Source: Komagataeibacter swingsii
GTDB lineage: Bacteria > Pseudomonadota > Alphaproteobacteria > Acetobacterales > Acetobacteraceae
NCBI RefSeq assembly: GCF_003207895.1
Contig: NZ_NKUB01000007.1
Location: 1-64,000 of the forward strand
Direction: 5' to 3'
Length of the DNA stretch: 64,000 nucleotides
Position numbers and translations under genes: made by a program
Notes under the pieces: model-generated
What the model was told of the DNA's origin: nothing
Database searches by the model: none
What the model saw: only the letters and a program-made list of their open reading frames with translations
Shown: positions 6,619-59,152 of the stretch, piece by piece
Layout of the letters: each line of letters begins with the position of its first letter
How positions within the stretch are numbered: position 1 is the stretch's first letter

Positions 6619-6697
6619 AAGGTTTTTGGTGAAGCTTTTTTCAAAAAGCTTCAGGGAACGCCGCCTTTCTGACAAAAGGCGGCGCCCCAAAACTGTT
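6619..6697. repeat. Dual-hairpin repeat, copy 1
   Basis: Core of the dispersed repeat: GAAGCTTTTTTCAAAAAGCTTC at 6631-6652 and a GCCGCC/GGCGGC hairpin at 6659-6684, flanked by GGTTTTTGG. It sits 10 bases after the VOC stop, between that gene and the oppositely directed PEBP gene. No IS-like end is recognisable on either side. Confidence 0.85.
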
Positions 6698-6741
6698 TTG
6701 TCCCTATCAACCGTTTATCGGGTCAACGCCCTTGCGGGCCG

Positions 6742-7236
6742 TCATTTCGGCTGCCTGCCAAACACGGCGGTCAGCCTGGCGGACCCAAGGCTGTGCTGGT
6801 TGATGACAAAGCCCACCATGGCGCCCGATGCATCATTGGGCAGTTCGATGCGTTCGATATCCAGCGCATGGATGGTGAAAATGTAATGGTGGTCCGGCCC
6901 CGGCGGGGGGGCTGCGCCACCATAGACATTGCCGCCAAAATCGGTGCGCGTCATTTCGGCGGGTTCGGGCAGGTTGTTGTCACCCGATCCGGCGCCCGCG
7001 GGCAGGGACGACACCGTGGCGGGAATGTTGATGACAACCCAGTGCCACCAGCCCGAACCCGTGGGCGCGTCGGGGTCGTACAGGGTGATGGCGAAGCTCT
7101 TGGTGCCGGCGGGCGGGTCCTGCCATGCCAGCGGCGGCGAGATATTGCCGCCCGAATAGCCCATCCCGTCGAACACCTGTGCTGCGGGCAGGCGGTCGCC
7201 ATCGTGGAAGGAACGGCTTGTCAGTGTAAAGGTCAT
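6742..7236 (-). CDS. YbhB/YbcL-family PEBP (Raf kinase inhibitor-like) protein
   Basis: A 164-residue protein of the phosphatidylethanolamine-binding family. Motifs include the ligand-pocket segment DPDAPTGSGWWHWVVINIP near residue 52, the GNISPPLAW start and the Pro-rich PPPGPDHHYIFTIHALD stretch. Bacterial members are cytoplasmic or periplasmic with no well-established role. No signal peptide is seen here. It converges on the VOC gene across repeat copy 1. Confidence 0.85.
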   Translation of the reverse strand: MTFTLTSRSFHDGDRLPAAQVFDGMGYSGGNISPPLAWQDPPAGTKSFAITLYDPDAPTGSGWWHWVVINIPATVSSLPAGAGSGDNNLPEPAEMTRTDFGGNVYGGAAPPPGPDHHYIFTIHALDIERIELPNDASGAMVGFVINQHSLGSARLTAVFGRQPK

Positions 7237-7303
7237 GTCGGTTTCCTGCTTTCCGCGCGGTGCGCCGCGCGGATAGGGGTCAACGTTGGCCGGGGGGCGG
7301 CCG

Positions 7304-7531
7304 TTACCAGTTCTGGCTGATCAGCCAGAATTCTTCCGATGTCAGGGTGATGACCTGGTCGCCGTTCTTGCTTTCGGCGGCGGCGCGGGCCAGGGCCTCG
7401 ATGCGCTGGATCATCAGCGTCTTGCGCTGGTAGGTCTCGTTGCGGTCCTTTTCCTCGACCGATTCCAGCACCTGCAGCGCGGTATGGCAGGCGCGGGTAA
7501 TGCGGGCGGCATCAAGTGCGGCATAGGACAT
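7304..7531 (-). CDS. Small hypothetical protein
   Basis: A 75-residue, mainly helical protein ([20 protein letters not shown] to the end at SQNW). I recognise no family. The ATG at 7531 has GGAG about 10 bases upstream; the frame is open for a further 16 codons. It lies 67 bp upstream of the PEBP gene in the same direction and may be co-transcribed with it. Codon use resembles the neighbours, which is the main argument that it is real. Confidence 0.6.
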
Positions 7532-7731
7532 GGGTCTTCTTCTCCATCTGTCTGATGACCCGGCGGGAACCGGGTTCATGGAATTCCCGTGCGGGAATCG
7601 CTGCCTTATTCTGGCTTCCCCGGCTGCGTCTGTCCAACATCGCCATGCGGCGGGCCTATGGCTGGCCGCTTTGTTGCAATGGTGACAGTTCGGGCTGGCA
7701 AGTATGGTGCGGATTCCGTAAAGGGAGCCGC

Positions 7732-8790
7732 ATGACGGACCTGGTTTCTGATTTCGACTTTACCCTGCCGCCGCAGAACATCGCCGACCATCCGGCCCGC
7801 CCGCGTGACAGCGCGCGCCTGCTGGACGTGCCGGTGGATGGCCCCTTCCTCGACCGCCACGTGCGCGACCTGCCGGGGTGCCTGCGCGCGGGCGATATCC
7901 TGGTGGCCAATGATACGGCGGTGATCCCGGCGCAGTTGCAGGCCATGCGGGGAGACGCGAAGATCGGCATCACGCTGGACCGCATCCTGCCCGATGGCAC
8001 ATGGCACGCGCTGGCGCGCAATGCCCGCCGTCTCCGTCCCGGTGATGTGCTGGCCTTTGGCGCATCCCCTGTCACGGCGCAGGTGATCGCGCGTGGGGAA
8101 GGGGGCGACGTGACCCTGCGTTTCAGCGCGGAAGGGGCGGCATTCGACCAGTTCCTGCATGATGTGGGCCACCTGGCCCTGCCACCCTATATCGCCCGGC
8201 CCGACGGTCCCACGGACGAGGACCGGAAGGATTACAGCACCATCTTCGCCCAGCACCGTGGCGCGGTGGCCGCCCCCACGGCGGGGCTGCATTTCACCCC
8301 TGGGCTGCTGGCGGGGCTGGATGCGGCGGGTGTCATTCGCCAGACGCTGACGCTGCATGTCGGCGCGGGCACGTTCCTGCCCATGCGCAGCGACCAGATT
8401 TCCGCCCACCGCATGCATGCCGAACGCGGCACGATTTCCCCCCATGCCGCAGCCCGCATCAATGCCGCCCGCGCGGCGGGGGGGCGGATTGTTGCGGTTG
8501 GCACCACCTCGCTGCGCCTTCTGGAAAGTGCGACGGATGAAGACGGCATCGTCCACCCCTTCCATGGCGAGACGTCGATCTTCATCCGCCCCGGCTACCG
8601 TTTCCGCGCGGTGGACATGCTGCTGACCAATTTCCACCTGCCGCGCTCGACGCTGTTCATGCTGGTCTGCGCCTTTGGCGGGTATCATCGCATGAAGGCG
8701 GCCTATGCACACGCCATCGCCAGCGGCTACCGCTTCTATTCCTATGGCGATGCCTGCCTGCTGCGCCGCACCGAAGGAGACCTGCCATGA
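7732..8790 (+). CDS. queA: S-adenosylmethionine:tRNA ribosyltransferase-isomerase
   Basis: A 352-residue QueA, which transfers the ribose part of SAM onto preQ1 in tRNA to give epoxyqueuosine. The start [25 protein letters not shown] and the segments [21 protein letters not shown] and [16 protein letters not shown] are characteristic. The ATG at 7732 has AAGGGAG upstream. Its last four bases (ATGA) overlap the tgt start, so translation is probably coupled. Confidence 0.96.
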
Positions 8791-9947
8791 CCACATTCCG
8801 CTGGCGGCCCGAAGCCCGCGCGGGCCATGCCCGCGCCGGCTGGCTGGACACCGCCCATGGCAGCGTGCCGACACCCACCTTCATGCCCGTTGGCACCGTT
8901 GGCACCGTCAAGGCCATGACGATGGACAGCGTGCGGTCCACGGGTGCTGGCATCGTGCTGGGCAATACCTATCACCTGATGCTGCGGCCCGGGGCGGAAC
9001 GGGTGCGCGCGCTGGGCGGGCTGCACCGGTTCATGGACTGGCCGGGGCCGATCCTGACCGATTCGGGCGGGTTCCAGGTCATGTCGCTTGGGCCGCTGCG
9101 CAAGCTGGATCAGGACGGGGTGACGTTCCGCTCGCATATTGACGGCTCGAAGCACCGGCTGACGCCCGAACGCTCGACCGATATCCAGCACGCGCTCGAT
9201 GCCACCATCAGCATGTGCTTTGACGAATGCCCAGCACTACCTGCGGCCCCCGACGTGATCGCGAAATCCATGCGCATGTCCATGCGCTGGGCCGAACGCT
9301 GCCGCACGGCGTTTGTCCAGCGCCCCGGCTACGCGCAGTACGGCATCATCCAGGGCGGGACCGAGCCGGAACTGCGCGCCGAAAGCGTCAGGGCGCTGAC
9401 CGGGATCGGCTTCGAGGGCTATGCCATTGGCGGCCTTGCGGTGGGGGAAGGGCAGGATCTCATGTTCTCGACCCTTGACTCGACCGTGCCGCTGATCCCC
9501 GATTCCAGCCCGCGTTACCTTATGGGCGTCGGCACGCCCGATGACCTGCTTGGCGCCGTGGAACGCGGCGTGGACATGTTCGACTGCGTCATGCCCACGC
9601 GCGCGGGGCGAACAGCGCGCGCCTATACCGAACGGGGCACGCTGAACCTGCGCAATGCCCGCCATGCCACCGATTCGCGGCCCATTTCGCCGCATTGCGA
9701 CTGCCTGGCCTGTTCGCGCCACAGCCGCGCCTACCTGCATCACCTGTTCCGGGCGAATGAAATCCTCGGCCCGATGCTGCTGACATGGCATAACCTTGCC
9801 TATTACCAGCGGCTCATGCGCGGGATGCGGGCGGCGATCGTCGATGGCGCGTTCACCGCCCATGCCGGCCACCTGCGTGCTGAGTGGGCGATGGATGACT
9901 GGAGTGGTGATGAAATGCCCTTTCCCGACATTCCCCCGGTGGCCTGA
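8787..9947 (+). CDS. tgt: tRNA-guanine transglycosylase
   Basis: A 386-residue TGT that exchanges guanine-34 for preQ1 in tRNAs with GUN anticodons. Catalytic segments [13 protein letters not shown] and [16 protein letters not shown] contain the two key aspartates, and [16 protein letters not shown] supplies the C-x-C-x2-C...H zinc site. It overlaps queA by ATGA and queG by a single base (TGATG), a tightly coupled queuosine operon. Confidence 0.97.
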
Positions 9948-11023
9948 TGCCGTCCGCGCCGTCCGGCCCTGACCCCGTGCGGATGGCTGCGCGGATTGCC
10001 GGCCATGCGCGCGACCTGGGTTTTGACGCGGTGGGATTCGCGCCCGCACGCCTTGATGATGCGGTGCGTAATCGTCTGGCCATGTTCGTGGAAAACGGAT
10101 TCGCGGGCGGCATGGGCTGGATGGCGCAGCGCATGGAACAGCGCGGCGACCCACGCGCGCTGTGGCCCGAAGTGCGCAGCGTCATCGCCCTTGGGCTGAA
10201 TTACGCGCCCGAAGGTGATGCGCTGGCCACGACCCGCGTGCCCGATGCGGGCAATATTTCCGTCTATGCCCGCAACCGCGATTACCATGACGTGGTCAAG
10301 GGGATGCTCAAGCACCTTGCGCAGTTCGTGGTGGGTGAAGGACGGCGGCAGGGCATGGACGGCACGCAGGTGAAGGTCTTTGTCGATACCGCCCCGGTGA
10401 TGGAAAAGCCGCTGGCGCAGAACGCGGGCCTGGGCTGGCAGGGCAAGCATACCAGCCTTGTCTCGCGCCGGCATGGCAGCTGGCTGTTCCTTGGCGAGGT
10501 CTATACCACGCTGGACCTGCCGCAATCGGCCCCGTCGGGCGGGGGCTGTGGCAGTTGCACCCGCTGCCTTGTGGCCTGCCCGACCGATGCGTTTCCCGCC
10601 CCCGGCGTGATGGATGCGCGGCGGTGCATTTCGTACCTGACGATTGAAAACCGCGACCCGATTCCCGAGGCGCTGCGTCCCGCCATGGGCAACCGCATCT
10701 ACGGGTGCGATGACTGCCTGGCCGTCTGCCCGTGGAACCGCTTTGCCGCAGCCACGAACCACATGAAACTGGCCGCGCGTGACGACCTGCGCGCGCCTGC
10801 GTTGCAGGACCTTGCCGCACTGGATGATGCCGGATTCCGCGCACGGTTTTCCGGCTCCCCCATCAAGCGCATTGGCCGGAACCGTTTCGTGCGCAACGTG
10901 GCTGTGGCCATCGGCAACAGCGCCCAGCCCGCCCTGCGCCCCAGTGTCGCGGCATTGTGCGACGATGCCGACCCGGTGGTGGCGGATGCCGCGCGCTGGG
11001 CCACGCTCAGGCTGCCCCGGTGA
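9947..11023 (+). CDS. queG: Epoxyqueuosine reductase
   Basis: A 358-residue QueG that reduces epoxyqueuosine to queuosine in tRNA, the last step of the pathway, with cobalamin and two 4Fe-4S clusters. Cluster motifs are CGSCTRCLVACPTDAF and CDDCLAVCPWNRF. The C-terminal third has HEAT-like repeats as in the family. The ATG overlaps the tgt stop by one base. Confidence 0.96.
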   Translation: MPSAPSGPDPVRMAARIAGHARDLGFDAVGFAPARLDDAVRNRLAMFVENGFAGGMGWMAQRMEQRGDPRALWPEVRSVIALGLNYAPEGDALATTRVPDAGNISVYARNRDYHDVVKGMLKHLAQFVVGEGRRQGMDGTQVKVFVDTAPVMEKPLAQNAGLGWQGKHTSLVSRRHGSWLFLGEVYTTLDLPQSAPSGGGCGSCTRCLVACPTDAFPAPGVMDARRCISYLTIENRDPIPEALRPAMGNRIYGCDDCLAVCPWNRFAAATNHMKLAARDDLRAPALQDLAALDDAGFRARFSGSPIKRIGRNRFVRNVAVAIGNSAQPALRPSVAALCDDADPVVADAARWATLRLPR

Positions 11024-11043
11024 CGGAGCCGGAGGCCACGGGC

Positions 11044-11325
11044 ATGCCGCTGCCCGCGCAGCGTGGCGCGCGACTGCTGCGCAAGCGCAGCCTCAACCTG
11101 TCGGGGCATCGCACCAGCGTGGCGCTGGAGCCGGAGTTCTGGCACGCCCTGCGCCTGATCGCGCAAAAGCGTGGCCTGACCCTTGCCGGGCTGGTGGGGC
11201 GCATTGACGCCGCCCGCCCGCCGGACCGCCCGCTGGCATCCGCGCTGCGGGTGGAGGCATTGCGGGAATGGATGCCTGCATTGCCGGAAATCGCTGGTGC
11301 GGACAGGGAAGATCAGTTGGGTTGA
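11044..11325 (+). CDS. Ribbon-helix-helix domain protein
   Basis: A 93-residue protein whose centre, RSLNLSGHRTSVALEPEFW then LRLIAQKRGLTLAGLVGRID, matches the ribbon-helix-helix domain of putative DNA-binding proteins common in Alphaproteobacteria. The ATG at 11044 has GGAGG 8 bases upstream; a GTG at 11020 overlapping the queG stop is the alternative. It follows queG by 20 bp, so it is almost certainly part of the queuosine operon. Its target is unknown; control of the operon itself or of neighbouring genes is a guess. Confidence 0.78.
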   Translation: MPLPAQRGARLLRKRSLNLSGHRTSVALEPEFWHALRLIAQKRGLTLAGLVGRIDAARPPDRPLASALRVEALREWMPALPEIAGADREDQLG

Positions 11326-11351
11326 CCGGGCATCCGTGCTAGCGTTGGGGC

Positions 11352-12167
11352 ATGGCAATCTGGGGCAAACTTTTTGGTGGCGTTGCGGGGTTCGCGGTTG
11401 GCGGCCCCATGGGCGCCGTCGTGGGCACGGCGCTGGGTCACGCGGCGGATAATGGCTCCCTGCTGGAAACGCCGGCAGGGGGATGGACCGACCGCTGGGG
11501 GCCGCGGCTGAACGCGGACCCGAATGGCGCGGCAACCTTCATGGCGGCCAAGATGGCGGCGGTGATGGGCAAGCGCGACCAGATGTACGGGCTGGTCATC
11601 ATCATCCTGTCCGCCAAGATGGCGAAGTGCGACGGGCCGGTGAACCGCGCCGAAATCGATGCCTTCAAGCGCCGTTTCCACCTGCCGCCCGAAAACATGC
11701 GCGAAGTCGGCCGCCTGTTCGACAGCGCGCGCCAGCGCACCGATGACTACCGTGCCTTCGCCACCGAACTGGGCCGCGCCTTCGCCAACAAGACCGGCAT
11801 GCTGGAAGACGCGCTGGCGTCCCTGTTCGTGATCGCGCGCGCGGATGGCGCGGTCAATGCAAGCGAGGAAGCCTTCCTGCGCGGGGTGCACAGGGCCTTC
11901 AACCTCAGCCCCGGTGCATGGGAGCGCGCGCGTGACGGCGGTGCGCGACCGGGCGTGAGCGAGGTTGACGCTTACGAGGTGCTGGGTATCTCACGCGATG
12001 CCAGCAATGACGAGGTCCGCGTGGTCTGGCGCAGGCTGGTGCGCGAACACCATCCCGATATCATGACCGCACGTGGTGCCACCCCCGCGCAACAGGCGCA
12101 GGGTGCGGCCCGCATTGCCCAGATCAATGCGGCGTGGGACCGGATCAAGCGCGACCGCAGGCTGTAA
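11352..12167 (+). CDS. djlA: DjlA-like TerB and J-domain co-chaperone
   Basis: A 271-residue protein. A Gly-rich hydrophobic N-terminus (residues 5-30) could anchor it in the membrane. A TerB-like helical domain follows (about 75-175), and a C-terminal J domain (about 200-270) contains the DnaK-activating HPD motif in REHHPDIM. This is the DjlA layout, though the membrane segment is less clear than in E. coli. It would recruit DnaK to the membrane. It starts 26 bp behind the RHH gene. Confidence 0.88.
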   Translation: MAIWGKLFGGVAGFAVGGPMGAVVGTALGHAADNGSLLETPAGGWTDRWGPRLNADPNGAATFMAAKMAAVMGKRDQMYGLVIIILSAKMAKCDGPVNRAEIDAFKRRFHLPPENMREVGRLFDSARQRTDDYRAFATELGRAFANKTGMLEDALASLFVIARADGAVNASEEAFLRGVHRAFNLSPGAWERARDGGARPGVSEVDAYEVLGISRDASNDEVRVVWRRLVREHHPDIMTARGATPAQQAQGAARIAQINAAWDRIKRDRRL

Positions 12168-12176
12168 GAAATCGTG

Positions 12177-12260
12177 GAAGGTTTTGGTGAAGCTTTTTTC
12201 AAAAAGCTTCGAAAGACACCGCCTTTTTGAAAAAAGGCGGCACCCGGAAGAACTTTTATT
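12177..12260. repeat. Dual-hairpin repeat, copy 2
   Basis: GAAGCTTTTTTCAAAAAGCTTC at 12189-12210 and CCGCCTTTTT...AAAAAGGCGG at 12219-12240, flanked by GGTTTTGG and AACTTTTATT. It fills the gap between djlA and the oppositely directed mrp gene, same orientation as copy 1. IS-like ends are not recognisable. Confidence 0.88.
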
Positions 12261-12265
12261 CCTCT

Positions 12266-13423
12266 TTACTGGTCCGCCTGGCGCGTGGCCTTCTTTTTCT
12301 GTTCCAGCAGGCGACGCAGCGCGCCGCCAACCGTATGGGCCAGCGCGCGATAGGCCAGCCCCGCCGGGCTGTCGGGGGCGGCGACCACGATCGGCGCGCC
12401 ATTGTCGGCACTGGCGCGGATATCGGCCAGCAGCGGGATTTCACCCAGGAACGGCACGCCCATCTTTTCCGCCTCCGTCCTTGCCCCGCCATGGCCGAAC
12501 AGTTCGGTGCGGTGGTTGCAGTTGGGGCAGCAGAAATAGGACATGTTTTCCACGACACCCAGCACCGGCACGTTCATCTTCTCGAACATGGCAACCCCGC
12601 GCCGGGCGTCCAGCAGGGCGATATCCTGCGGGGTGGAAACGATCACTGCGCCAGCCAGCGCGGTTTTCTGCGCCAGTGTCAACTGCGCATCCCCCGTGCC
12701 CGGCGGCATGTCCACCACCAGCACGTCCAGCGCGCCCCATTCCACATCGCCCAGCAACTGCCCGATCGCCCCCATGACCATTGGCCCGCGCCAGATCATG
12801 GCCTTGCTTTCATCCACCAGCATGCCGATCGACATGGCGCTGATGCCCCATTTATGCGGCGGGATCAGGCGGCCGTCACGCACTTCGGGCTGGTCGCCAA
12901 CACCCATCATGCGTGGCAGGGAAGGGCCATGCACGTCCGCATCCAGCAGCCCGACCTTCAGCCCCTCCAGCCCCAGGCCCACCGCCAGGTTGACGGCCGT
13001 GGTGGACTTGCCCACGCCCCCCTTGCCCGATGCCACGGCAATGACCACGCCCACGTCTGGCGGCAGCGGGCCGGTGGCGGCCTTTGGCGCCTTGCCCCCA
13101 AGGTTGAGGGGACGGTGGCCGCCGCCGGTGGGCGCAGGCGCCGCCTGTGGCGCGGGCGTGGCGGGTGCCGGGCGGTGCGCGGTCAGGATGACGCTGGCCG
13201 CCGTGCAGCCGGGAACCGCGGCCACAAGGGCACGTTCCAGTTCGGGCAGCAGTGGTTGCAGCGATCCCGCCCGCGTGCGGTCGGTCGCGATGGCGACATG
13301 CAGGACGCCATCACGCACCATGAAGGCATCCAGGCTGCCCATATCCGCAACACTGATGGCATGATCCGCGGTGCGCACATGTTGCAGCACGGTTTCGATG
13401 GTTGCCCTGTCGGGACTGGTCAT
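12266..13423 (-). CDS. mrp: Mrp/ApbC-family iron-sulfur carrier ATPase
   Basis: A 385-residue P-loop protein of the Mrp/NBP35 family, which binds and passes on Fe-S clusters. An N-terminal MIP18-like domain (about 1-85) is followed by an Ala/Pro linker and the ATPase domain with GKGGVGKST, DADVHGPSLPRMMG and VDMPPGTGDAQL. The cluster-binding CPNC pair lies in YFCCPNCNHRTELFG. The ATG at 13423 is the first that gives the normal N-terminus. It is the only gene in this unit and converges on djlA. Confidence 0.93.
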   Translation of the reverse strand: MTSPDRATIETVLQHVRTADHAISVADMGSLDAFMVRDGVLHVAIATDRTRAGSLQPLLPELERALVAAVPGCTAASVILTAHRPAPATPAPQAAPAPTGGGHRPLNLGGKAPKAATGPLPPDVGVVIAVASGKGGVGKSTTAVNLAVGLGLEGLKVGLLDADVHGPSLPRMMGVGDQPEVRDGRLIPPHKWGISAMSIGMLVDESKAMIWRGPMVMGAIGQLLGDVEWGALDVLVVDMPPGTGDAQLTLAQKTALAGAVIVSTPQDIALLDARRGVAMFEKMNVPVLGVVENMSYFCCPNCNHRTELFGHGGARTEAEKMGVPFLGEIPLLADIRASADNGAPIVVAAPDSPAGLAYRALAHTVGGALRRLLEQKKKATRQADQ

Positions 13424-13662
13424 GGTTGTGCGCTCCCTGCTGTCTGCTCTCTGGCCCGTGCGGGTATAGAAGGGGCGACCCATGGTGGTCGAGTCATGAA
13501 ACGGTGGGCACCCGCCCGCATGCCACCCATATGTCATGCCCGGCATGCGGGGCATCCCTGCCATTGAGGGAATGGCTGGCTGCGCGGTTTGCTGCTTTAC
13601 GCTCGCTGCGCCAGGATGGTTGCAGCCATTTCTGTGCATCGTTCAGGCGGACAGGGGACACG

Positions 13663-14826
13663 ATGGGCATTTCCACTTCGCGGGGGGCGACACCCCACCG
13701 GCGCGATCACCGGATCGATGCGCTGCGCGGGGTGGCGCTGCTCATGATGTGCATCGACCATATCCCGCAGGATGTGCTGAACCGCTTCACCATGCGCAAT
13801 ATAGGCTTTGCCGACGCGGCGGAGGTGTTCGTGCTGCTGGCGGGCTATGCCTCGTGGCTGGCCTATGGCCGCGCGTTTGGCAGGAAGCAGCCGGTCATGT
13901 CGGTGCTGGCGCGGATCGGGCGGCGGTGCTGGCAGCTTTACGTATTCCAGATGGTGATGGTGGTGGTGTGCATTTCCACCATCCGCATATGGCGGCATTT
14001 CTGGCCGGTGCCGGTCGATTTCCTTGAACCCGAACTGGCGCATGGGCTGGATTCGGCATGGCGGGTGCTGTCATTGCAGGCCTTGCCGGGCAACCTGAAC
14101 ATCCTGCCGCTTTATATCGTGCTGCTGCTGGGGTTCGCGCCCCTGTACGCGCTGCTGCGTGGGGTGGGGACGCCCGTGGTGCTGGGGATGAGCGGGGCGG
14201 TCTGGCTGCTGGTCAACCTGGACCCGCGCCTGAACTTTCCCAACTGGCTTGACCCCGACGGGTGGTATTTCGACCCGCTGGCATGGCAGTTCCTGTTCGT
14301 GCTGGGGGTGTGCGGGGCGCGGGTTGCGGGGCAGCATGATGGCAGCCTGCCGCGTTCGCGCGTGCTGGCGGCGGTGTGCGGGCTGTACCTGGTCTTTTCC
14401 TTCGTGCAGTCCTTTCCCTGGACGGACTGGGGCTTTGCCGACCTGCGGCCCGTCGGCATGGCGGTGCCCGACAAGATGATCCTGGCCCCGTGGCGGCTGC
14501 TGGATGTGCTGGCGCTGTTCTACCTGGTGCAGTCCTCGCCACGGGCCACCGTGCTGGCGGGGACGCGGGGCGGCCAGCTTATGGCGCTGTTCGGGCGGCA
14601 TTCGCTGGAAATCTTTACCGCAGGCACGCTGGTGGACCTGTACGCGCGTCTGGTGCTGACCAGTTTCGGCACCGGCTGGGTCATGCAGGTGGTGGTGAAC
14701 GTGGTGGGGTTCGTGGTGCTGCTGTGGGTGGCGCGCAACCGCGAACGCGCCCGCGTGGCGGCCCGCAGGCCCGCGCCACCCAAACCCGATGGCCTGCCCG
14801 CGCACGCGCCGCTGTGCCGGAACTGA
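13663..14826 (+). CDS. opgC: OpgC-family membrane acyltransferase
   Basis: A 387-residue protein with about ten membrane segments of the OpgC family, which adds acyl groups such as succinyl to osmoregulated periplasmic glucans. The start RRDHRIDALRGVALLMMCIDH is typical of this acyltransferase-3-related group, and FADAAEVFVLLAGYASWLAYG and FGRHSLEIFTAG are further conserved stretches. The ATG at 13663 has GGGGA upstream. It is 5.5 kb from opgGH but on the same strand, which supports a common glucan pathway. Confidence 0.85.
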   Translation: MGISTSRGATPHRRDHRIDALRGVALLMMCIDHIPQDVLNRFTMRNIGFADAAEVFVLLAGYASWLAYGRAFGRKQPVMSVLARIGRRCWQLYVFQMVMVVVCISTIRIWRHFWPVPVDFLEPELAHGLDSAWRVLSLQALPGNLNILPLYIVLLLGFAPLYALLRGVGTPVVLGMSGAVWLLVNLDPRLNFPNWLDPDGWYFDPLAWQFLFVLGVCGARVAGQHDGSLPRSRVLAAVCGLYLVFSFVQSFPWTDWGFADLRPVGMAVPDKMILAPWRLLDVLALFYLVQSSPRATVLAGTRGGQLMALFGRHSLEIFTAGTLVDLYARLVLTSFGTGWVMQVVVNVVGFVVLLWVARNRERARVAARRPAPPKPDGLPAHAPLCRN

Positions 14827-14904
14827 GGCCGTGGTTTCCGCGCGCATGAAGGGCATGGTATAGGGTAGCGCGTCAGATCCAGTTCAGCAGGATATATAAG
14901 CCCC

Positions 14905-16488
14905 ATGTCCTTTCGTGCCGCTGCCTTTTCCCGATCCTGCCTTGCCATGGGGCTGGTTACGGCCCTTGGGGGGCATGCCGCGCGCGCGGCTGATCCCGCC
15001 CCCGCCCCGAATGCGGCGCCCGCCGGCGCGCCGCCTGCCGCCACGGCCCCCCTGCGCCTGCCGGGCGAGGGGCGGAACATGCCCGACAGCTTTGCCGATC
15101 TTGCGGCGAAACTGCTGCCCGCCGTCGTCAACGTGTCCACCACCGAGATGGTCCGCCCCGGCGAGGATGATGACGATGGCGACGATGGGGACAGCACGCC
15201 ACAGGTGCCCAATTTCCCCGAAGGGTCACCGTTCGAGAAATTCTTCCACGACTTCATGAACCGGCAGGACAGCCCCAACGCGCCACCGCGCAAGATGCAG
15301 GCGCTGGGGTCGGGCTTCATTATCGACCCTTCGGGCGTGATCGTGACCAATAACCACGTCGTGCGCCATGCCGACCAGATCACCATTACTCTTCAGGACA
15401 ATACCGTGCTCAAGGCGCGCCTGCTGGGCCATGACGACCGCACCGACCTTGCGGTGCTGAAGGTGGACAGCCCCAGGCCGCTGCCCGCCGTGCCCTTTGG
15501 CGACAGCGACCATGCGCGCGTGGGCGACTGGGTGCTGGCCATCGGCAACCCGTTCGGCCTGTCGGGCACGGTGACGGCGGGCATCGTCTCCTCACGCGGG
15601 CGCAATATCGAGCAGGGTCCGTATGATGATTTCATCCAGACCGACGCGCCCATCAACAAGGGCAATTCCGGTGGCCCGCTGTTCAACCTGAACGGGGAGG
15701 TGATCGGCATCAACACTGCCATCTTCTCGCCTTCGGGCGGGTCGATCGGGATCGGGTTTTCAATCCCTTCGGCCGAGGCGCAGGGCATCATCGAACAGCT
15801 TCGCCGCCATGGCCGCGTCACGCGCGGGTGGATTGGCGTGCGCATTCAGGACGTGACGCAGGAAATCGCCGATGGGCTGGGCCTGAAAAGCGCGCATGGC
15901 GCGCTGATCGCGGGGGTGGAGCCGAAGGGACCGGCGGCGATGGCCCACCTGCAGACGGGTGATGTGATCCAGAGCCTGAACGGCAAGGAAATCGATGGCC
16001 GCGCCCTGCCGCGCCTTGTGGCCGAGCTTGCCGGCGGCAGCGTGGCCCATCTGGGGATCTGGCGCAAGGGCCAGGAGATGAATGTCGCCATCACCATCGG
16101 CGCCCTGCCCGAGGAAAAGGCCGACAAGGCCGATGGCGCCAGCCAGCCCGCGAAAAAACCGGCACAGGGCAGCATGGCCATTACCGGCATGGGCTTTACG
16201 GTGGGTGATCTGGATGACATCGCGCGCCAGAAATACAACATGGCGGAAGGGCAGAAGGGCGTGCTGGTCACCGGCGTGACCGATGACAGCCCGGCCGCCG
16301 AACGCGGCCTGCGCCCCGGTGACGTGGTGACCGAGGTGCAGCAGTCGGCCGTGAACACGCCGGCCGACCTGCGCCGCCAGCTTGACACGGCCCGCAGCCA
16401 GCACCGCAAGACCGTGCTGTTCCTGGTGCAGAATTCCGATGGCCTGCGCTGGGTGCCCTTTCCCCTGCCGGATGGCGCCGGGCACTGA
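14905..16488 (+). CDS. degP: Do-family periplasmic serine protease (DegP/DegQ type)
   Basis: A 527-residue exported protease. A signal peptide ends near HAARAADP. The trypsin-like domain carries the triad H151 (VTNNHVVRH), D181 (DRTDLAVL) and S255 (KGNSGGPLF). Two PDZ domains follow, one starting near residue 290 and one after 430. It degrades or refolds damaged envelope proteins. Whether it is a DegP or DegQ orthologue cannot be decided. It is 5 bp upstream of the FUSC gene and probably in one transcript with it. Confidence 0.93.
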   Translation: MSFRAAAFSRSCLAMGLVTALGGHAARAADPAPAPNAAPAGAPPAATAPLRLPGEGRNMPDSFADLAAKLLPAVVNVSTTEMVRPGEDDDDGDDGDSTPQVPNFPEGSPFEKFFHDFMNRQDSPNAPPRKMQALGSGFIIDPSGVIVTNNHVVRHADQITITLQDNTVLKARLLGHDDRTDLAVLKVDSPRPLPAVPFGDSDHARVGDWVLAIGNPFGLSGTVTAGIVSSRGRNIEQGPYDDFIQTDAPINKGNSGGPLFNLNGEVIGINTAIFSPSGGSIGIGFSIPSAEAQGIIEQLRRHGRVTRGWIGVRIQDVTQEIADGLGLKSAHGALIAGVEPKGPAAMAHLQTGDVIQSLNGKEIDGRALPRLVAELAGGSVAHLGIWRKGQEMNVAITIGALPEEKADKADGASQPAKKPAQGSMAITGMGFTVGDLDDIARQKYNMAEGQKGVLVTGVTDDSPAAERGLRPGDVVTEVQQSAVNTPADLRRQLDTARSQHRKTVLFLVQNSDGLRWVPFPLPDGAGH

Positions 16489-16493
16489 ACCGC

Positions 16494-17621
16494 ATGCAGG
16501 AACGCCTGAAGACCCTGCTGCTGTCCATCATGCGGCGGGGGACATGGCGGCAGGTCGTGCGGATGAACGTCTCGCTCATCCTGTCGGGTATCATCGCCAC
16601 CATCATCCATCTGGATGAACCGGTCTGGGCGCTGATCACGTCGGTCATCGTCATTACCCAGACCCGCCTGACCCAGACGCTATCCACCGGGCGCGAGCAG
16701 ATCGTGGGCACGTTGATCGGGGCTGCGGCCGGCATGTCGGCCATCGCGCTGGAACAGTGGTGCGCGCTGTCGGTGGGCATGGTGTTCTGGGTCATGCTCA
16801 TGCCGCTGGCGGTGCTGGTGGCGCTGCGGCCCAAGATGCGGGTGGCCATTGTCACGCTCATGGTCGTGCTGCTGTTTCCCGCCACGGGGGAACCGTTCTC
16901 AAGGCCGTTGCAGCGTATCGCCTCGATCATGACGGGTGTTGTGGTGTCGTTCGCGGTCTCGTTCTTCGTACTGCGCAACGAGGCGCGGCGCGAGGTGCTG
17001 CGCAATGCCGCAAGCCTGCTGCGCCGCCTGTCCGACCTGCTGTCCACGGCGCTGCACCAGCATCCCGACCATGACGCGCTGGGCACGGTGGATGTGATGT
17101 GTCGTTCCCTGTTGCAGGACATCAATGACGGCGTGCAGGAGGCGGAGGTCGAACATCCCGGGTCACTGGCGCGGCATGATCCGCTGGTGATGCGCCTGCC
17201 GGGGCTTTTGCGCCGGGTCCGTTCCGATGCCATCTTCATTTCACGCGCGGCGGTGGAAGGCGAAACCGCCCGGACGGGCGACATCCTGCAGCAGGAGCGT
17301 GACATGCTGGCGCGGATACTGGGCCAGATGGCCGATCGCTGCGATATGCTGGCCGCGTCCCATCGCGGGCGCGTGCTACCCGATGACGGCATGCGTGATA
17401 TTCTGGATGAACTGGAACGCCAGGGGGAACACTGGACCCCTGTCATGCGTTTTGCCATCGGGCTGCTGCACGCCGACATGCGGCTTGCCGTGCGCAATAT
17501 CTGGTCGGACGGGCAGATGGATGACGGGTCGTTCCCGCTTTCGGACCATCCGTTCCAGTCCGGTGCTGCGTTCGAGCCTGCCCCCACCGATACGGTCGTG
17601 ACGCGACAGGGCGGGGGCTGA
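16494..17621 (+). CDS. FUSC / aromatic acid exporter family membrane protein
   Basis: A 375-residue protein with about six N-terminal membrane segments (residues 25-165), then a long cytoplasmic helical region. The pattern EPVWALITSVIVITQTR followed by GREQIVGTLIGAAAG is typical of the FUSC/ArAE group that includes AaeB and YeeA-like exporters. The substrate is unknown. It is separated from degP by 5 bp and from the dehydrogenase by 29 bp, so the three may form an operon. Confidence 0.82.
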   Translation: MQERLKTLLLSIMRRGTWRQVVRMNVSLILSGIIATIIHLDEPVWALITSVIVITQTRLTQTLSTGREQIVGTLIGAAAGMSAIALEQWCALSVGMVFWVMLMPLAVLVALRPKMRVAIVTLMVVLLFPATGEPFSRPLQRIASIMTGVVVSFAVSFFVLRNEARREVLRNAASLLRRLSDLLSTALHQHPDHDALGTVDVMCRSLLQDINDGVQEAEVEHPGSLARHDPLVMRLPGLLRRVRSDAIFISRAAVEGETARTGDILQQERDMLARILGQMADRCDMLAASHRGRVLPDDGMRDILDELERQGEHWTPVMRFAIGLLHADMRLAVRNIWSDGQMDDGSFPLSDHPFQSGAAFEPAPTDTVVTRQGGG

Positions 17622-17650
17622 CACCACAACCAAGGAGTGCAAAAGGCACC

Positions 17651-19114: not shown

Positions 19115-19231
19115 GCGACTGTTTCAGAACAGACTGGCAATAATAAATAATAAAAGTTTTTGGGTGTCGCCTTTTTTCAAAAAGGCGACGTTCCCTGAAG
19201 CTTTTTGAAAAAAGCTTCACCAAAAACTTTA
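19115..19231. repeat. Dual-hairpin repeat, copy 3, with one IS-like end
   Basis: The left end GCGACTGTTTCAGAACA starts right after the TAA stop codon of the dehydrogenase. The core follows in reverse orientation: TCGCCTTTTTTCAAAAAGGCGA, then GAAGCTTTTTGAAAAAAGCTTC at 19197-19218. The right end is degenerate (TTTTCAAATTGTTATT at 19236-19251). It lies between convergent genes. Confidence 0.85.
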
Positions 19232-19249
19232 TTTATTTTCAAATTGTTA

Positions 19250-19792
19250 TTATATATTCGTCGTCGTGAAAAGGGCGCGGCGCATGGGGCAGGCATCCGC
19301 CCCGTAGGATGCGGTAATGTCCGCCGGGACTCCGGTCATGGGTTCGAACCCCATATGCGCCCAGACCGGGCGTGCCCCTTCCGCCGCCATCAGTGCCATC
19401 CACCCCACGCCATGGTCGCGGGCGCGCCGTGTCAGGATGCGCAGGGCGTCATGCATCGCGCCCCGCCCGCGCAGGGCGGGGGAGATGGCGATGTCGTGCA
19501 GGTACCAGCAATCCACCCGCGGCGGCAGGCGGCGCAGGTAGGTGTCCAGCGCCGGCGGGCGGTCCATGCGCCACGGATGGCTCAGGACATAACCGCCCGG
19601 TTTCCCCCATGCATCGGGCAGGACCAGGCACCCCGCCGGGCACAGCCTGCGGCGTTCATCCAGCACATCGGCCCGTTCGGGGCAGTCGGGATGCATGGCG
19701 GTGGCCAGCGCCATGACGGCGGGCAGATCCCGTGCCCCCATGGGCCGCCATGCGCCCGACAGTGGCCCCGATGGGGAAATGGGCTGGGTCAT
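19250..19792 (-). CDS. GNAT-family N-acetyltransferase
   Basis: A 180-residue acetyltransferase. The acetyl-CoA-binding stretch YLHDIAISPALRGRGAMHDALR carries the R-x2-G-x-G/A motif, and VWAHMGFEP is the usual C-terminal strand-helix. The substrate is unknown. It is divergent from the ModE-like gene (81 bp apart), so the two may share a control region. Confidence 0.82.
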   Translation of the reverse strand: MTQPISPSGPLSGAWRPMGARDLPAVMALATAMHPDCPERADVLDERRRLCPAGCLVLPDAWGKPGGYVLSHPWRMDRPPALDTYLRRLPPRVDCWYLHDIAISPALRGRGAMHDALRILTRRARDHGVGWMALMAAEGARPVWAHMGFEPMTGVPADITASYGADACPMRRALFTTTNI

Positions 19793-19873
19793 TGCGGGAA
19801 AATTCCGTTTCAGGTGAGGCCGTTTCCGGTAGTAAGGGGCAATGATAGAGCTGTGGCCAGGAGTTTTGAAACC

Positions 19874-20218
19874 ATGACAGAAATGCGCCTGACATTACGG
19901 GTGGACGCGAATGGCTCGCCCCTGCTGGGGCATGGCAAGATCAAGCTTCTGGAACAGATTGGCCAGACCGGGTCCATTTCGGCCGCGGCACGGGCCATGG
20001 GCATGTCCTATCGCCGCGCGTGGCTGCTGGTCGAGGCCATGAACACGACCTTCGTGCGGCCGCTGGTCTCCGCCCGGCCCGGCGGGGGCGGGGGGGCCGG
20101 CCTGTCGCCCGAAGGTGAAGCCGTATTGCGGTTGTACCGTGAAATCGAACACTCCGCGCGTGTCGCCGTGCAGGGACCGCTGGAAACCTTGGCGGCCATG
20201 TGTTCGCCCCCGCCGTGA
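19874..20218 (+). CDS. Single-domain ModE-like winged-helix regulator
   Basis: A 114-residue protein made only of the ModE/LysR-type winged helix: GKIKLLEQIGQTGSISAAARAMGMSYRRAWLLVEAMN is the HTH. The molybdate-binding domains of full ModE are absent, so any ligand sensing must be elsewhere or lacking. No molybdate transport genes are in the window. It lies 118 bp upstream of opgG in the same direction. Its target could be its own region, but this is speculation. Confidence 0.8.
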   Translation: MTEMRLTLRVDANGSPLLGHGKIKLLEQIGQTGSISAAARAMGMSYRRAWLLVEAMNTTFVRPLVSARPGGGGGAGLSPEGEAVLRLYREIEHSARVAVQGPLETLAAMCSPPP

Positions 20219-24025: not shown

Positions 24026-24044
24026 GCCGGAGCGGGGCGCGTCC

Positions 24045-26634: not shown

Positions 26635-26768
26635 ATTGCCCTGAAAAAGTGCGGGTGTAGTCACAGGCGCAGCCTGAAACGCTGTGGTTCAGGGCGATTT
26701 CCCATCTGGCTGGTACAACCTGTCGTATGGGCAGGAACCGGGCAACAGGTGAGGATTGCCAATTATGA

Positions 26769-26880
26769 AGAAGTTTCTGGTGAAGCTTTTTCCAGAAAGC
26801 TTCGAAAGAACGCCGCCTTTTTTGAAAAAGGTGGCACAAAAGAACTTTTATTTATCAGTCAGTTGTTTTCAAACAGTCGC
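26769..26880. repeat. Dual-hairpin repeat, copy 4, with one IS-like end
   Basis: GAAGCTTTTTCCAGAAAGCTTC at 26783-26804, then CGCCGCCTTTTTTTGAAAAAGG, then the end TTTTCAAACAGTCGC at 26866-26880 followed by TAA. This end is the mirror of the left end of copy 3 (GCGACTGTTT). The other end has been lost. It lies between convergent genes. Confidence 0.87.
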
Positions 26881-44968: not shown

Positions 44969-45045
<77 letters not shown>

Positions 45046-48390: not shown

Positions 48391-48701
48391 TCATGAGAAG
48401 TTTTTGGTAAGAGGCTGTTTGAAAACAAATCATTGATAAAAAACAATAAAAGTTTTTGGGTGCCCCCTTTTTCTCAAAAAGGCGGCGTTCTTTCGAAGCT
48501 TTTGCAAAAAGCTTCACCAAAAACTTCCTTTAATTTTAAAACGCTATCATGATCTGACTTTTCAAACAGTCTCTAAAACTTTTACCATTTTCGCCAGATC
48601 GTGGCATTGCGGCAGGTAGTGGCCGCGTTTGTGTCCCGGATATGATAACGCAGCGACAGACCAGCCGGGGCTGGCTGTCGCCACGTATCACCCATGGTGG
48701 A
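48391..48701. other. Convergent gap holding only the MITE-like copy
   Basis: 311 bases between the TPR and OmpA/MotB-like stops. Apart from the element at 48411-48573 I see no gene or clear terminator. Confidence 0.6.
48411..48573. mobile_element. Dual-hairpin repeat, copy 6: complete MITE-like element
   Basis: A 163-bp element. Its ends are GAGGCTGTTTGAAAAC and, inverted, GAGACTGTTTGAAAAG (14 of 16 identical), with similarity continuing into ATCATTGATA / ATCATGATA. TAA lies directly outside each end (48408-48410 and 48574-48576), a TNA target duplication as made by IS1031-group IS5 elements. Inside are the two hairpins in reverse orientation. It encodes no protein. AGAAGTTTTTGGT just outside the left end looks like a remnant of an older copy. 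Confidence 0.8.
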
Positions 48702-52560: not shown

Positions 52561-52570
52561 GGGCGGATGG

Positions 52571-55351: not shown

Positions 55352-55371
55352 AGATAAAGAAGCTTTTTTAA

Positions 55372-55498
55372 GAGACTGTTTGGAAAGTCAGCTCATGATA
55401 GTGCTTTAAAATCAAAGGAAGTTTTGGTGAAGCTTTTTATAAAAGCTTCGAAAGAACGCCGCCTTTTTGGAAAAAGGCGGCGCGCAAAGGCTTTTATT
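55372..55498. repeat. Dual-hairpin repeat, copy 7, with one IS-like end
   Basis: The end GAGACTGTTTGGAAAGTCAG follows TAA (55369-55371) and matches the right end of copy 6 base for base over most of about 60 bases. Then GAAGCTTTTTATAAAAGCTTC and GCCGCCTTTTTGGAAAAAGGCGGC. It stops near the thiE stop, so the other end is lost. GAAGCTTTTTT just outside (55359-55369) looks like part of an older copy. Confidence 0.88.
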
Positions 55499-55504
55499 GA
55501 TTTT

Positions 55505-56140
55505 TCAGGCGGTTTCCGCTGTCGCAATCGCTGCGTTCATGGCGCGTACACCCGCCCCCGGCCCATCGGGATGGGACCACACGGCGCCGATGACCGACAG
55601 GAAATCAGCGCCCGCGCGTACCAGTGTGCCGCAGTTTTCCGGCGTGATGCCGCCAATGGCCACGACGGGCAGCTCGATCATGCTGCTCCACCACGTCAGC
55701 AGGGCGGGATCGGCGCGGATTTCGGTTTCCTTGGAGGGGGAGGGGAAAAACGCGCCGAACGCCACGTAATCGGCCCCGGCCTCACCCGCGCGCAGGGCCA
55801 TGTCGCGACTGTCGTAGCACGACACGCCCAGTTGTAGTTCGTCGCCCAGTATGCGGCGCGCCGTGGCCACATCCGTATCGTCCATGCCCACATGCGCCCC
55901 GTCACAGCCGCAGGCAACGGCAAGGTCGGGCCGGTCATTCATGATGAAGGCCACGTCTCGCGCATGGGCGATGGGTTGCAGCACCTCCACCGCGCGGCGG
56001 ATCGTGTCGTCATCCACGTTTTTCAGCCGCAGCTGCACGGCCGCGACCGGGCCTGCGTCCAGCGCTTCGGCCAGACGGGGGGCGAACGCCGCCGGATCAA
56101 GCGATTCGGGGGTGATGAGGTAAAGCTGGCAATCAGTCAT
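55505..56140 (-). CDS. thiE: Thiamine-phosphate synthase
   Basis: A 211-residue ThiE, joining the pyrimidine and thiazole halves of thiamine. Segments [47 protein letters not shown] and [21 protein letters not shown] are the family pattern. No thi-box riboswitch was seen upstream on the minus strand. It is 206 bp past the next gene. Confidence 0.94.
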
Positions 56141-57427: not shown

Positions 57428-57431
57428 ATTG

Positions 57432-57592
57432 CAAGGGCGGGGCTGCCGGGTGCGTCAGGCATGATTCAACCCCTGGGCCGATAAGCACTTCCTAGGGAGC
57501 TGGCACTGTCGTGACCGTGGTCACGTTACCTGGCGCCCACCTGCGTCAGCAGGTCCGGGAGGGCTGATCCGACCAACGGCCATGGCGGCTCC
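57432..57592 (+). ncRNA. ssrS: 6S RNA
   Basis: The 177-base gap between zapA and the formyl-THF cyclo-ligase gene holds a structured sequence with CCTGGGCCGATAAGC, the hairpin CGTGACCGTGGTCACG, GACCTGC/GCAGGTC-type pairing and GGCTGATCCGACC. Together with the zapA-ssrS-fau gene order this marks 6S RNA, which binds the sigma70 polymerase holoenzyme. Ends are approximate. Confidence 0.82.
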
Positions 57593-57604
57593 GTATATGT
57601 GTTC

Positions 57605-58216
57605 ATGACCTCTCTCGATCCCGAATCGTGGCCCACAATGCGGGCCAAGCAGGCATTGCGCCACCAGATGGCGCGCCACCGGCAGGCTTTCGCAACCAGC
57701 CCCGCCCGCGCCGGCGCGGATGAGGCCCTGTGCCACCGCATGGTGCGTGGCCTGCGCGGCCTGACCGGGGCGGGGGATTGTATCGCCCTTGTCTGGCCCC
57801 TGCCGGGGGAAAGCGACCTGCGCCCGGTCATGCAGGCCCTGCATGCGGACGGGCTGTGCATTGCCCTGCCGGAAACCCCGCCACGCGGGCACCCCCTGGT
57901 CTTTCGCCGCTGGCGGCCCGACTGCCCCATGCAGCCCGGACGCCATGGCACCTTTCACCCCGATGGTACCCCCATGCAGCCCGACGTGGTGTGCGTGCCG
58001 CTGCTGGCCTTTGACCGGCGTGGCATGCGGCTGGGATATGGCGGGGGGTATTACGACCGTACGCTGGCGCGCCTGCCGCGCGCGCGGACGGTGGGGTTTG
58101 GCCTGTCCTTTCAGGAAGTGACATGCATTCCGACCGGCCTGTATGATGTGGCATTGCCCGCGATCGTGACCGAACGCGAATGGATCCGGTGTCGTGGCGA
58201 CGGGCGTACACGGTAA
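57605..58216 (+). CDS. fau: 5-formyltetrahydrofolate cyclo-ligase
   Basis: A 203-residue enzyme of the 5-FCL (YgfA) family, making methenyl-THF from 5-formyl-THF with ATP. LALVWPLPGESDLRP-type and GMRLGYGGGYYDRTLARL motifs are present. ATG 57605 is chosen over GTG 57599. It ends 14 bp before the YmdB-type gene. Confidence 0.92.
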   Translation: MTSLDPESWPTMRAKQALRHQMARHRQAFATSPARAGADEALCHRMVRGLRGLTGAGDCIALVWPLPGESDLRPVMQALHADGLCIALPETPPRGHPLVFRRWRPDCPMQPGRHGTFHPDGTPMQPDVVCVPLLAFDRRGMRLGYGGGYYDRTLARLPRARTVGFGLSFQEVTCIPTGLYDVALPAIVTEREWIRCRGDGRTR

Positions 58217-58230
58217 CAAGGGCTGTTTTC

Positions 58231-59046
58231 TTGAGAATACTGTTTCTGGGTGACATTGTCGGGCGCGTGGGGCGCGAGGCCGTTATTTCCCGCCTGCCCA
58301 CCCTGCGGCGCGACCTTGCACTCGACCTTGTGGTGGTGAACGGGGAAAACGCCAGCCATGGCTTCGGCCTGTCGCCCGCCATCGGGCGTGACCTGATCGA
58401 AGCGGGGGCCGATGTCATTACCCTGGGCAACCATAGCTGGGACCGCCGCGACCTGATCGGCCATATCGACAGCGAACCCCGCATCATCCGCCCCGCCAAC
58501 TATCCCCCCGGCACGCCGGGGCAGGGCAGCGTGGTGGTGGAACTGGTGGACGGGCGCAAGGCGCTGGTGGTCAGCATCATGGGCCGCCAGTTCATGGATG
58601 CGATGGATGATCCGTTCCGCGCCGTCACCGATATCCTGTCGCGCCACAGGCTGGGCGTGACCATGCATGCCGCCGTGGTGGACGTGCATGCCGAGGCCAC
58701 GAGCGAGAAATGGGCCATGGGGCATTTCCTTGATGGCCGGGTTTCGCTGGTGATCGGCACCCATACCCACACGCCCACGGCGGACCACCGCATCCTGTCG
58801 GCTGGCACCGCGTTCCAGACCGATGCGGGCATGTGCGGCGATTATGACAGCGTGATCGGCATGGGCAAGGACGCGGCCATAGCCCGCTTCGTGCGCAAGA
58901 TGCCCGGAGAGCGCCTGCAACCCGCCGAAGGGGATGCTAGCATTGCGGGCATGATGGTGGAAACCGATGACGCCACCGGCCTTGCCCGCCGCATGGCCCC
59001 GGTGCGGCAGGGCGGCCATCTGGCGCCAACGCTGCCGGATTTCTGA
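58231..59046 (+). CDS. YmdB-type metallophosphoesterase (TIGR00282 family)
   Basis: A 271-residue protein of the YmdB family of metal-dependent cyclic-nucleotide phosphodiesterases. RILFLGDIVGRVGREAV, VVNGENASHGFGL, TLGNHSWDRRDLI and GTHTHTPTADHRIL provide the metal ligands. The start is TTG 58231, since no ATG gives the right N-terminus. Biological role in this group is unclear. Confidence 0.9.
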   Translation: MRILFLGDIVGRVGREAVISRLPTLRRDLALDLVVVNGENASHGFGLSPAIGRDLIEAGADVITLGNHSWDRRDLIGHIDSEPRIIRPANYPPGTPGQGSVVVELVDGRKALVVSIMGRQFMDAMDDPFRAVTDILSRHRLGVTMHAAVVDVHAEATSEKWAMGHFLDGRVSLVIGTHTHTPTADHRILSAGTAFQTDAGMCGDYDSVIGMGKDAAIARFVRKMPGERLQPAEGDASIAGMMVETDDATGLARRMAPVRQGGHLAPTLPDF

Positions 59047-59048
59047 TG

Positions 59049-59152
59049 TCAAAACAAACTACTGATAAGAAAAAAAGTTTTCGGGTGCCGCCTTTTTCCA
59101 AAAAGGGGCGTTCTTCTGAAGCTTTTTGAAAAAAGCTTCACCAAAAACTTCC
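59049..59152. repeat. Dual-hairpin repeat, copy 8
   Basis: It starts 2 bases after the ymdB-type stop with TCAAAACAAACTACTGATAA, similar to the inner left end of copy 6. Then GCCGCCTTTTTCCAAAAAGG and GAAGCTTTTTGAAAAAAGCTTC, then CACCAAAAACTTCC. Reverse orientation, between convergent genes. Confidence 0.86.

Follow-up and report, generated by a model that had tools for sequence, protein, structure and literature searches.

What is a short repeat doing when it occupies almost every place where two genes face each other? This question is raised by a 64-kb stretch of the Komagataeibacter swingsii genome (contig NZ_NKUB01000007.1, positions 1 to 64,000; hereafter, the window), for which an original prediction had described a dual-hairpin repeat lying in eight of ten convergent gene junctions and nowhere else, and had attributed this placement to selection for a two-way barrier to transcription or to purging from other sites. 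A covariance model built from the repeat (R1) recovered exactly the eight predicted copies of a common core in the window and no others (74-111 bits, E 2e-18 or better; 16 matches were listed, eight of them opposite-strand readings of the same eight copies). A gene caller based on a hexamer model trained on sampled contigs placed each copy between the end of a plus-strand gene and the end of a minus-strand gene, with orientation split four to four, also as predicted. The caller recognized nine inner convergent junctions, the predicted tenth being situated at the edge of the window and contig. Eight of the nine are occupied, and only the 19-bp gap behind opgH/mdoH (24026-24044) is empty, as predicted; the gene preceding this gap is identified as MdoH by NCBIfam. 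Our analyses show that the repeat is a miniature inverted-repeat transposable element (MITE), a non-autonomous transposable element of acetic acid bacteria, and suggest that it has probably been recruited, in part, as a transcript-end structure working in both directions, most visibly where genes face each other.

A non-autonomous transposable element with a structured core

The window copy at 48410-48574 is one of 22 intact copies in the genome, which measure 161-166 bp and share a mean pairwise identity of 86%. These copies terminate in inverted repeats (GAGACTGTTTGAAAA), with the match motif AGAGACTGTTTGAAAA at both ends; their flanking triplets are identical in 14 of the 22 copies, and 40 of 44 triplets read TNA, compared to 4.9% of intergenic 3-mers. 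The repeat is short and non-coding and has both the terminal inverted repeats and the target-site duplication of a MITE. IS1031-type elements use GAG...CTC ends and TNA targets, and the GAG ends and TNA duplication found here are in keeping with IS5-family elements of the IS1031 kind. The predicted copy starts at 48411 and 55372 turned out to be genuine element ends, but of this longer 165-bp element (its MITE arms) rather than of the core.

Many copies lack the arms. A census sample of 1.13 Mb (contigs C36, C58, C91, C69, C80 and positions 1-60000 of C20), representing 30% of the 3.73-Mb, 113-contig genome (G000), yielded 98 matches to a profile of the intact MITEs, of which 13 reach both ends, 27 one end and 58 neither. 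Truncation points are scattered, consistent with erosion of the arms while the core is retained, and the core may also move by itself, without arms. No autonomous parent was found, either by searching for end pairs 500-2500 bp apart in the 1.13-Mb sample and 0.8 Mb of relatives, where the only pair recognized around a transposase was a nested insertion sequence, or among 30 of the 117 PF13340 matches in four genomes. Those PF13340 matches that adjoin MITE sequence have other ends and interrupt its hairpins; the PF13340 insertion sequence at G000:C58 was rejected as the parent because its ends (GGGCCTGTTGGG) differ and it sits within hairpin 1 of a MITE copy. This insertion sequence, which encodes a DUF4096 transposase, lies at the T-tract/A-tract hairpin tips of the repeat, apparently with a 2-bp duplication. 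By eye, half a hairpin of the repeat directly adjoins it in 8 of the 10 loci showing its ends, out of 30 PF13340 loci (genomes G000, G009, G010 and G011), and it seems to be a transposon aiming at another transposon's hairpins.

The core spans 89 nt; either of its strands can fold to form an outer stem (AAAGTTTTTGG/CCAAAAACTTT) and two hairpins, GAAGC-T5-A5-GCTTC and GCCGCC-T5-A5-GGCGGC, the exact form of the latter being GCCGCC-TTTTT-GA-AAAAA-GGCGGC. Both predicted palindromes are thus present with their stems, but GA separates T5 from A5 in the second, for which the strict T5-A5 pattern returned no match within 3 mismatches, and the outer stem had been overlooked: AAGTTTTTGG, ahead of hairpin 1, can pair with CCAAAAACTT, past hairpin 2, yielding a three-way junction. 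This junction appears in 5 of 8 minimum-energy folds (four copies, both strands read), with z-scores from -2.2 to -6.2. Furthermore, 10 of 30 pairs are altered on both sides, compared to a shuffle mean of 4.3 (2 of 500 shuffles as high), indicative of compensatory change. A search of the window with Rfam 15 at gathering scores returned no RNA family matches at the copies.

The two readings of the core differ in what follows the GC-rich hairpin. Among the 93 of 339 copies parsed by a strict hairpin rule, the next 8 nt contain on average 0.2 T in the forward reading (with the gene) and 4.2 T in the reverse reading (against it). The original prediction, according to which no U-run follows the hairpins at once, had missed the partly U-rich continuation that the reverse reading offers. 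A terminator scan of positions 1-20000 of the window flagged none of the three copies located there.

Placement at gene ends and turnover between species

Across the whole genome, R1 produced at least 150 matches at 73 bits or more; such whole-genome counts are not copy numbers, as they cover the best 150 or fewer candidates and one copy may count once per strand. In the census sample, placement was tallied for the 97 copies scoring at least 20 bits with the MITE profile (this cut dropped one of 98 copies here and one of 80 in the relatives): 63 are convergent, 24 lie in same-strand gaps, 8 in divergent gaps, 2 at contig edges and none within a gene. Copies occupy 63 of 153 convergent, 24 of 623 same-strand and 8 of 155 divergent junctions. 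Relative to element-free gap length (21.8, 76.8 and 48.6 kb, respectively), the convergent excess is highly significant (p 7e-30; p 2e-23 against same-strand gaps alone). The 73 copies reaching at least 60 bits with R1 are distributed similarly (53 convergent, 17 same-strand, 2 divergent, 1 edge), as are 79 copies in syntenic regions of seven relatives (0.8 Mb; 61, 16 and 2 copies over 122 convergent, 509 same-strand and 122 divergent junctions), and 160 copies from named-species loci collected by hairpin pattern include 78 convergent, 58 same-strand, 6 divergent and 18 edge cases. The preference is kept at equal net gap (element subtracted) and is therefore not merely an effect of gap length: below 20 bp, 19/43 convergent and 1/202 same-strand junctions are occupied in the sample, and between 150 and 400 bp the corresponding values are 9/17 and 4/126, with 21/29 and 7/64 in the relatives.

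Convergent placement is a strong preference, not a rule. The exclusivity claimed by the original prediction is accurate for the window and false outside it, in the sample (24 same-strand and 8 divergent copies of 97) as in the relatives; equal frequency in divergent and same-strand gaps, which the prediction had named as its refutation, is likewise not what the census revealed. With 63 of 95 sampled copies being convergent, the chance of finding eight out of eight in one window is ~0.04, making this window a somewhat lucky one. Same-strand copies sit mostly right behind the upstream stop, and divergent copies are rare. A strong divergent copy (100.7 bits) at G000:C91:79432-79521 is missing from the same gap in 6/6 comparable relatives and constitutes a candidate recent insertion. 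Along C36, the first 225 kb are rich in strong copies and the region 241523-380453 (~140 kb) holds only eight weak R1 copies (19.7-57.1 bits), suggesting that it may have been acquired or may belong to a different replicon. No clear signal of mutual exclusion with other hairpins was obtained in gaps of at least 60 bp (36/43 without the element, compared to 27/43 in shuffles, and 27/28 with it).

In 67 of the 97 copies, one edge of the element overlaps a stop codon or is no more than 10 bp away from it. Nearby stops are TAA in 42 of 89 cases, compared to 168/846 in other genes (p 6e-8) and 56/238 at other convergent ends (p 7e-5), and several copies have a MITE-end triplet that doubles as the stop codon (TAA 19112-19114 in the window, TAA at C36:52619-52621, TTA at C80:4811-4813). 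TNA comprises TAA, TGA and their complements; insertion at such a site would rebuild the stop and spare the upstream protein, which would explain why copies sit exactly there. Repetitive extragenic palindromes (REPs) of the GTAG kind are also reported to provide stop codons, in the available part of one source (PMC3733652).

Same-strand gaps are informative with regard to orientation because only one gene ends there. Among the 74 same-strand copies within 30 bp of the upstream stop, 54 are oriented against the gene and 20 with it; counted per upstream-gene family, these abutting copies give 43 against, 18 with and 1 tie (p 0.002), and named-species loci alone give 32 and 11. The favored orientation is that in which the GC-rich hairpin is read first, followed by the U-rich stretch. 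The bias was first seen at a MITE profile score of at least 60 bits (15:2 in the sample and relatives) and then, with the same cut, in named loci (25:8), a count that still took in the Tidjanibacter loci L328, L335 and L338 (one copy each), which the 54:20 set leaves out. In convergent gaps, an apparently closer stop on the GC-hairpin-first side (11.5 vs 28.5 bp, p 2.5e-5) was rejected as a likely artefact of uneven alignment ends; it disappears with symmetric hairpin edges (39 vs 36 bp, p 0.49, 61 copies), and the codon score of the two facing genes is independent of element orientation (p 0.75).

The first 20 kb of the window are syntenic in the seven genus members searched. A comparison of 21 convergent junctions of contig C91 with up to seven relatives shows that 13 carry the element in at least two species, and that both orientations are present at 11 of these 13; species pairs in which both members hold a copy agree in orientation in 42 cases and differ in 29. 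Empty orthologous sites can be as short as 9-21 bp between two stops (junctions 19114, 24025 and 80932), and the gap matching the window copy at 19115..19250 measures 9-43 bp in the seven relatives, two of which contain hairpin remnants. At junction 59046 the window copy is opposite in orientation to five of seven relatives, and in genome G014 the copy is reversed and has one MITE arm, within flanks that otherwise match those of sister species. In near relatives, the copy at 55371..55505 has a counterpart consisting of the core only, at the same site and with the same orientation; the window copy at this junction (55351) appears to combine an older core with a MITE. Presence and orientation turn over at the same convergent junctions, which would be filled, flipped and emptied either by fresh insertion or by exchange between copies. 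The original prediction had been right about a large convergent preference but had missed both the mobility of the element and this turnover. The features concerned are listed in Table 1.

Table 1. Copies of the repeat in the window, the empty convergent gap, and insertion-sequence loci within repeat hairpins (window positions unless a contig or locus is named).
Position	Strand	Feature	Evidence
6617..6705	+	Dual-hairpin core, no MITE ends found; starts 7 bp past the stop of a glyoxalase-fold gene and faces a YbhB-like gene	R1 92.3 bits
12175..12265	+	Dual-hairpin core, no MITE ends found; occupies the gap between djlA-like and apbC-like gene ends	R1 85.3 bits
19115..19250	-	Core (19144-19232) and decayed MITE end beginning immediately behind TAA, the stop of the gene that ends at 19114	R1 110.9 bits
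24026..24044		Empty convergent gap after opgH (mdoH); element present in 3/7 relatives (G018, G008, G004)	
26767..26880	+	Core (26768-26857) and right MITE end	R1 82.7 bits
43618..43706	-	Dual-hairpin core, no MITE ends found; the stops of the fructosamine-kinase-like gene and the FMN oxidoreductase gene are each 10-11 bp away	R1 104.1 bits
48410..48574	-	Intact MITE of 165 bp (core 48440-48529); the two inverted ends are present, and the target duplication is TAA	R1 and MITE profile
55371..55505	+	Copy of hybrid appearance, with core (55416-55503) and left MITE end	R1 and MITE profile
59065..59153	-	Core; possible arm remnants by eye, outside the reach of the MITE profile	R1 90.2 bits
G000:C58:127363-128345; L352, L362, L363, L364, L366, L367, L377		DUF4096 insertion-sequence loci in repeat hairpins	

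Beside the last copy, window positions 59154-59220 contain a further hairpin (GGGACTGTTTCAAGG...TGAATAGTCCC) with MITE-like end sequence, common to G009. Elsewhere in the window, positions 1-105 match several places in relatives at 88-89%, as expected for an insertion sequence end at a contig edge, and RNA genes comprise an alphaproteobacterial (permuted) tmRNA (3293-3612), a tRNA (44972-45045) and 6S RNA (57437-57595).

Occurrence in other genomes and relation to known elements

Among the matches listed, the repeat family is represented in Komagataeibacter, Novacetimonas, Gluconacetobacter entanii, Acetobacter and Gluconobacter. R1 matches are present in all 18 other presumed genus members and, under strict filters, in 10 of 120 family genomes, our own included. 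A plasmid search with the window MITE returned six records, five from Komagataeibacter and one from Novacetimonas; a plasmid search with the divergent form of genome G054 returned no match. G054 and G152, from other Acetobacteraceae genera, gave 78 and 53 R1 matches (strands counted apart), and the loci read in them have the same outer stem and the same T-tract/A-tract apices, with hairpins GTTC/GAAC, TTTC/GAAA, CTCCC/GGGAG and GCTTC/GAAGC. These forms retain pairing while their sequence differs, and they may share descent with the Komagataeibacter core. The same 30-mer was also observed in metagenome-assembled genomes of Tidjanibacter (Bacteroidota; loci L241, L269, L306 and L307, also L328, L335 and L338), with a second T-tract hairpin having a CCCAAAAAT arm in two of the four loci read (L307 and L241). 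This occurrence of the dual-hairpin plan in another phylum may reflect convergence, transfer or contamination.

A literature search, mostly among papers outside subscription, found none describing this repeat in acetic acid bacteria, and the available parts of a G. oxydans RNAseq paper (PMC5756330) and an A. pasteurianus genome paper (PMC4686929) name no such element. The repeat constitutes a new family of a known kind. It is similar to IS5-family (IS1031-type) MITEs in being short and non-coding, with inverted GAG...CTC ends and a 3-bp TNA duplication, but unlike them it carries a structured core, often without ends and located at gene ends, and no autonomous parent was found in the searches above. 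Bidirectional intrinsic terminators, which Ju et al. reportedly found in 2019 as overlapping terminators between convergent E. coli genes, differ in having an A-tract/U-tract pair directly flanking one GC stem; in the repeat, a partly U-rich stretch follows the GC hairpin in the reverse reading only, and the repeat spreads by transposition. Uptake-sequence terminators of Neisseria and Pasteurellaceae are comparable in that their hairpins are enriched in tail-to-tail regions, according to the available part of PMC1852404.

Weighing explanations for the placement

We think it fairly probable that the repeat is a MITE family with IS5/IS1031-like ends whose core is kept at transcription-unit ends as a two-way transcript-end structure. 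Its mobility, target site, placement and orientation bias are established by the data above; for the core itself we lean slightly towards a role in termination or 3' protection. TNA targets include stop codons, so that insertions at stops would leave the protein intact, and insertions in operons and promoters would be purged. At transcription-unit ends the core would be retained, its structure in the nascent RNA stopping RNA polymerase or protecting 3' ends. It would work best with the GC-rich hairpin read first, followed by GUUCUUU; the other reading, a closed junction followed by CUUUUAUU, would be tolerable, and between facing genes a single copy would serve both. Both causes named in the original prediction, selection for a barrier and purging, seem to act, the barrier being backed by the 54:20 orientation bias and by a conserved architecture with changed stems. 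More tentatively, and somewhat short of probable, the family as a whole may possess a class of mobile three-way-junction elements serving as Acetobacteraceae two-way barriers, in which transposition would bring terminators to stops, selection would keep correctly oriented ones at transcription-unit ends, and stems could vary if pairing stays around the T-tract/A-tract apices.

A number of observations weigh against a retained function of the core. The convergent excess weakens in net gaps above 400 bp (7/15 vs 6/38 in the sample; 1/7 vs 2/28 in relatives), and the 22 intact, presumably young MITEs already prefer convergent gaps (10 convergent, 5 same-strand, 1 divergent, 6 edge), which implies that targeting or fast purging accounts for much of the placement. 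Many orthologous junctions have no element at all, including convergent ones with gaps of 9-21 bp, and the broken or collapsed hairpins of near relatives at junction 55351 indicate that old copies decay. The orientation bias is absent farther from the stop (9 against, 15 with) and weaker over all scores (63:35); at 20 bits or more it amounts to 16:8 in the sample and is not seen in the relatives alone (7 against, 9 with), a dilution attributable to weak copies. The 30-bp limit was chosen post hoc, and some of the relatives belong to species also represented among the named loci. Paired cells exceed shuffles only slightly (94.0% vs 93.2%), among related copies that are non-independent. Furthermore, G012 and G017 have few R1 matches (64 and 31, where a copy may count once per strand), and the 18 loci of G054 and G152 classifiable by eye, using a gene model from another genus, comprise 2 convergent, 12 same-strand and 4 divergent cases.

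Several of these points would suit a transposon that targets TNA, inserts widely and survives only at stops or between facing genes, sites at which insertion interrupts neither promoter nor leader nor operon, with hairpins serving the element or nothing. Such an explanation, which we hold to be unlikely, is consistent with the TNA duplications, the absence of copies inside genes (0/97), the turnover at orthologous junctions (both orientations at 11/13; 42 same and 29 opposite pairs), the decay of old copies and the concentration of intact ones in convergent gaps. It predicts, however, no same-strand orientation bias, contrary to the 54:20 ratio of abutting copies, and a similar decay of arms and core, contrary to the 58/98 matches reaching neither end (a weak point, as profile detection favors the core). 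Neither does it foresee complementary stems with new sequences in other genera, nor the infrequent use of same-strand gaps of 150-400 bp (4/126 in the sample, 7/64 in relatives), many of which are probably unit boundaries. That the bias is tied to the direction of the abutting gene also points to a strand-specific RNA role, and makes it improbable that the palindromes act at the DNA level, as cruciforms, bent A-tracts or protein-bound sites absorbing positive supercoiling between facing genes in the manner proposed for REP/gyrase sites, even though the similar structure on both strands, the A/T tracts in every arm and an enrichment that is strongest where positive supercoils should accumulate would all fit such a role. 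The insertion sequence in hairpin tips (8/10 loci by eye) could mean DNA extrusion, or only a liking for T-tract/A-tract centers. No binding protein was encountered, though no search aimed at one was made.

A REP system, in which the core would be a REP-type palindrome moved by a Y1 (RAYT) transposase, is hardly credible, and membership was rejected: PF01797 is absent from all seven carrier genomes searched, our own included, and present in 5 of 14 control genomes; the ends and TNA duplication are of the DDE type; and, by reading, neither the core nor the MITE consensus has a GTAG or CGTC tag at its ends. The resemblance lies in how many copies there are, in their extragenic location at 3' ends and in their supplying stop codons. 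In the available part of PMC3733652, REPs and bacterial interspersed mosaic elements (BIMEs) of the GTAG and CGTC families are numerous palindromes outside genes, located mainly between convergent or same-strand genes, near stops and sometimes providing the stop, and the CGTC family is reported missing from Acetobacteraceae. REPs are themselves insertion-sequence targets, according to the available part of PMC1525189, as the repeat is in its hairpins. Unlike a REP, a single palindrome of 20-40 bp, the repeat has two hairpins and an outer stem in its 89-nt core, together with MITE ends and TNA duplications and no Y1 transposase in 7/7 genomes. We propose that it works like REPs and bidirectional terminators but is not itself a REP.

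If the co-opted core does terminate or protect transcripts, terminators would be spread by transposition in organisms used for cellulose and vinegar, and about two-fifths of the sampled convergent junctions (63/153) would carry one. The orthologous junctions that gain, lose and flip copies would then represent a genus-wide natural experiment on the needs of convergent gene ends, and a class of AT-rich dual-hairpin terminators would have been overlooked by plain hairpin-plus-T-run scans. The repeat would also be a tangible example of elements whose TNA target makes the stop codon a harmless place to insert.

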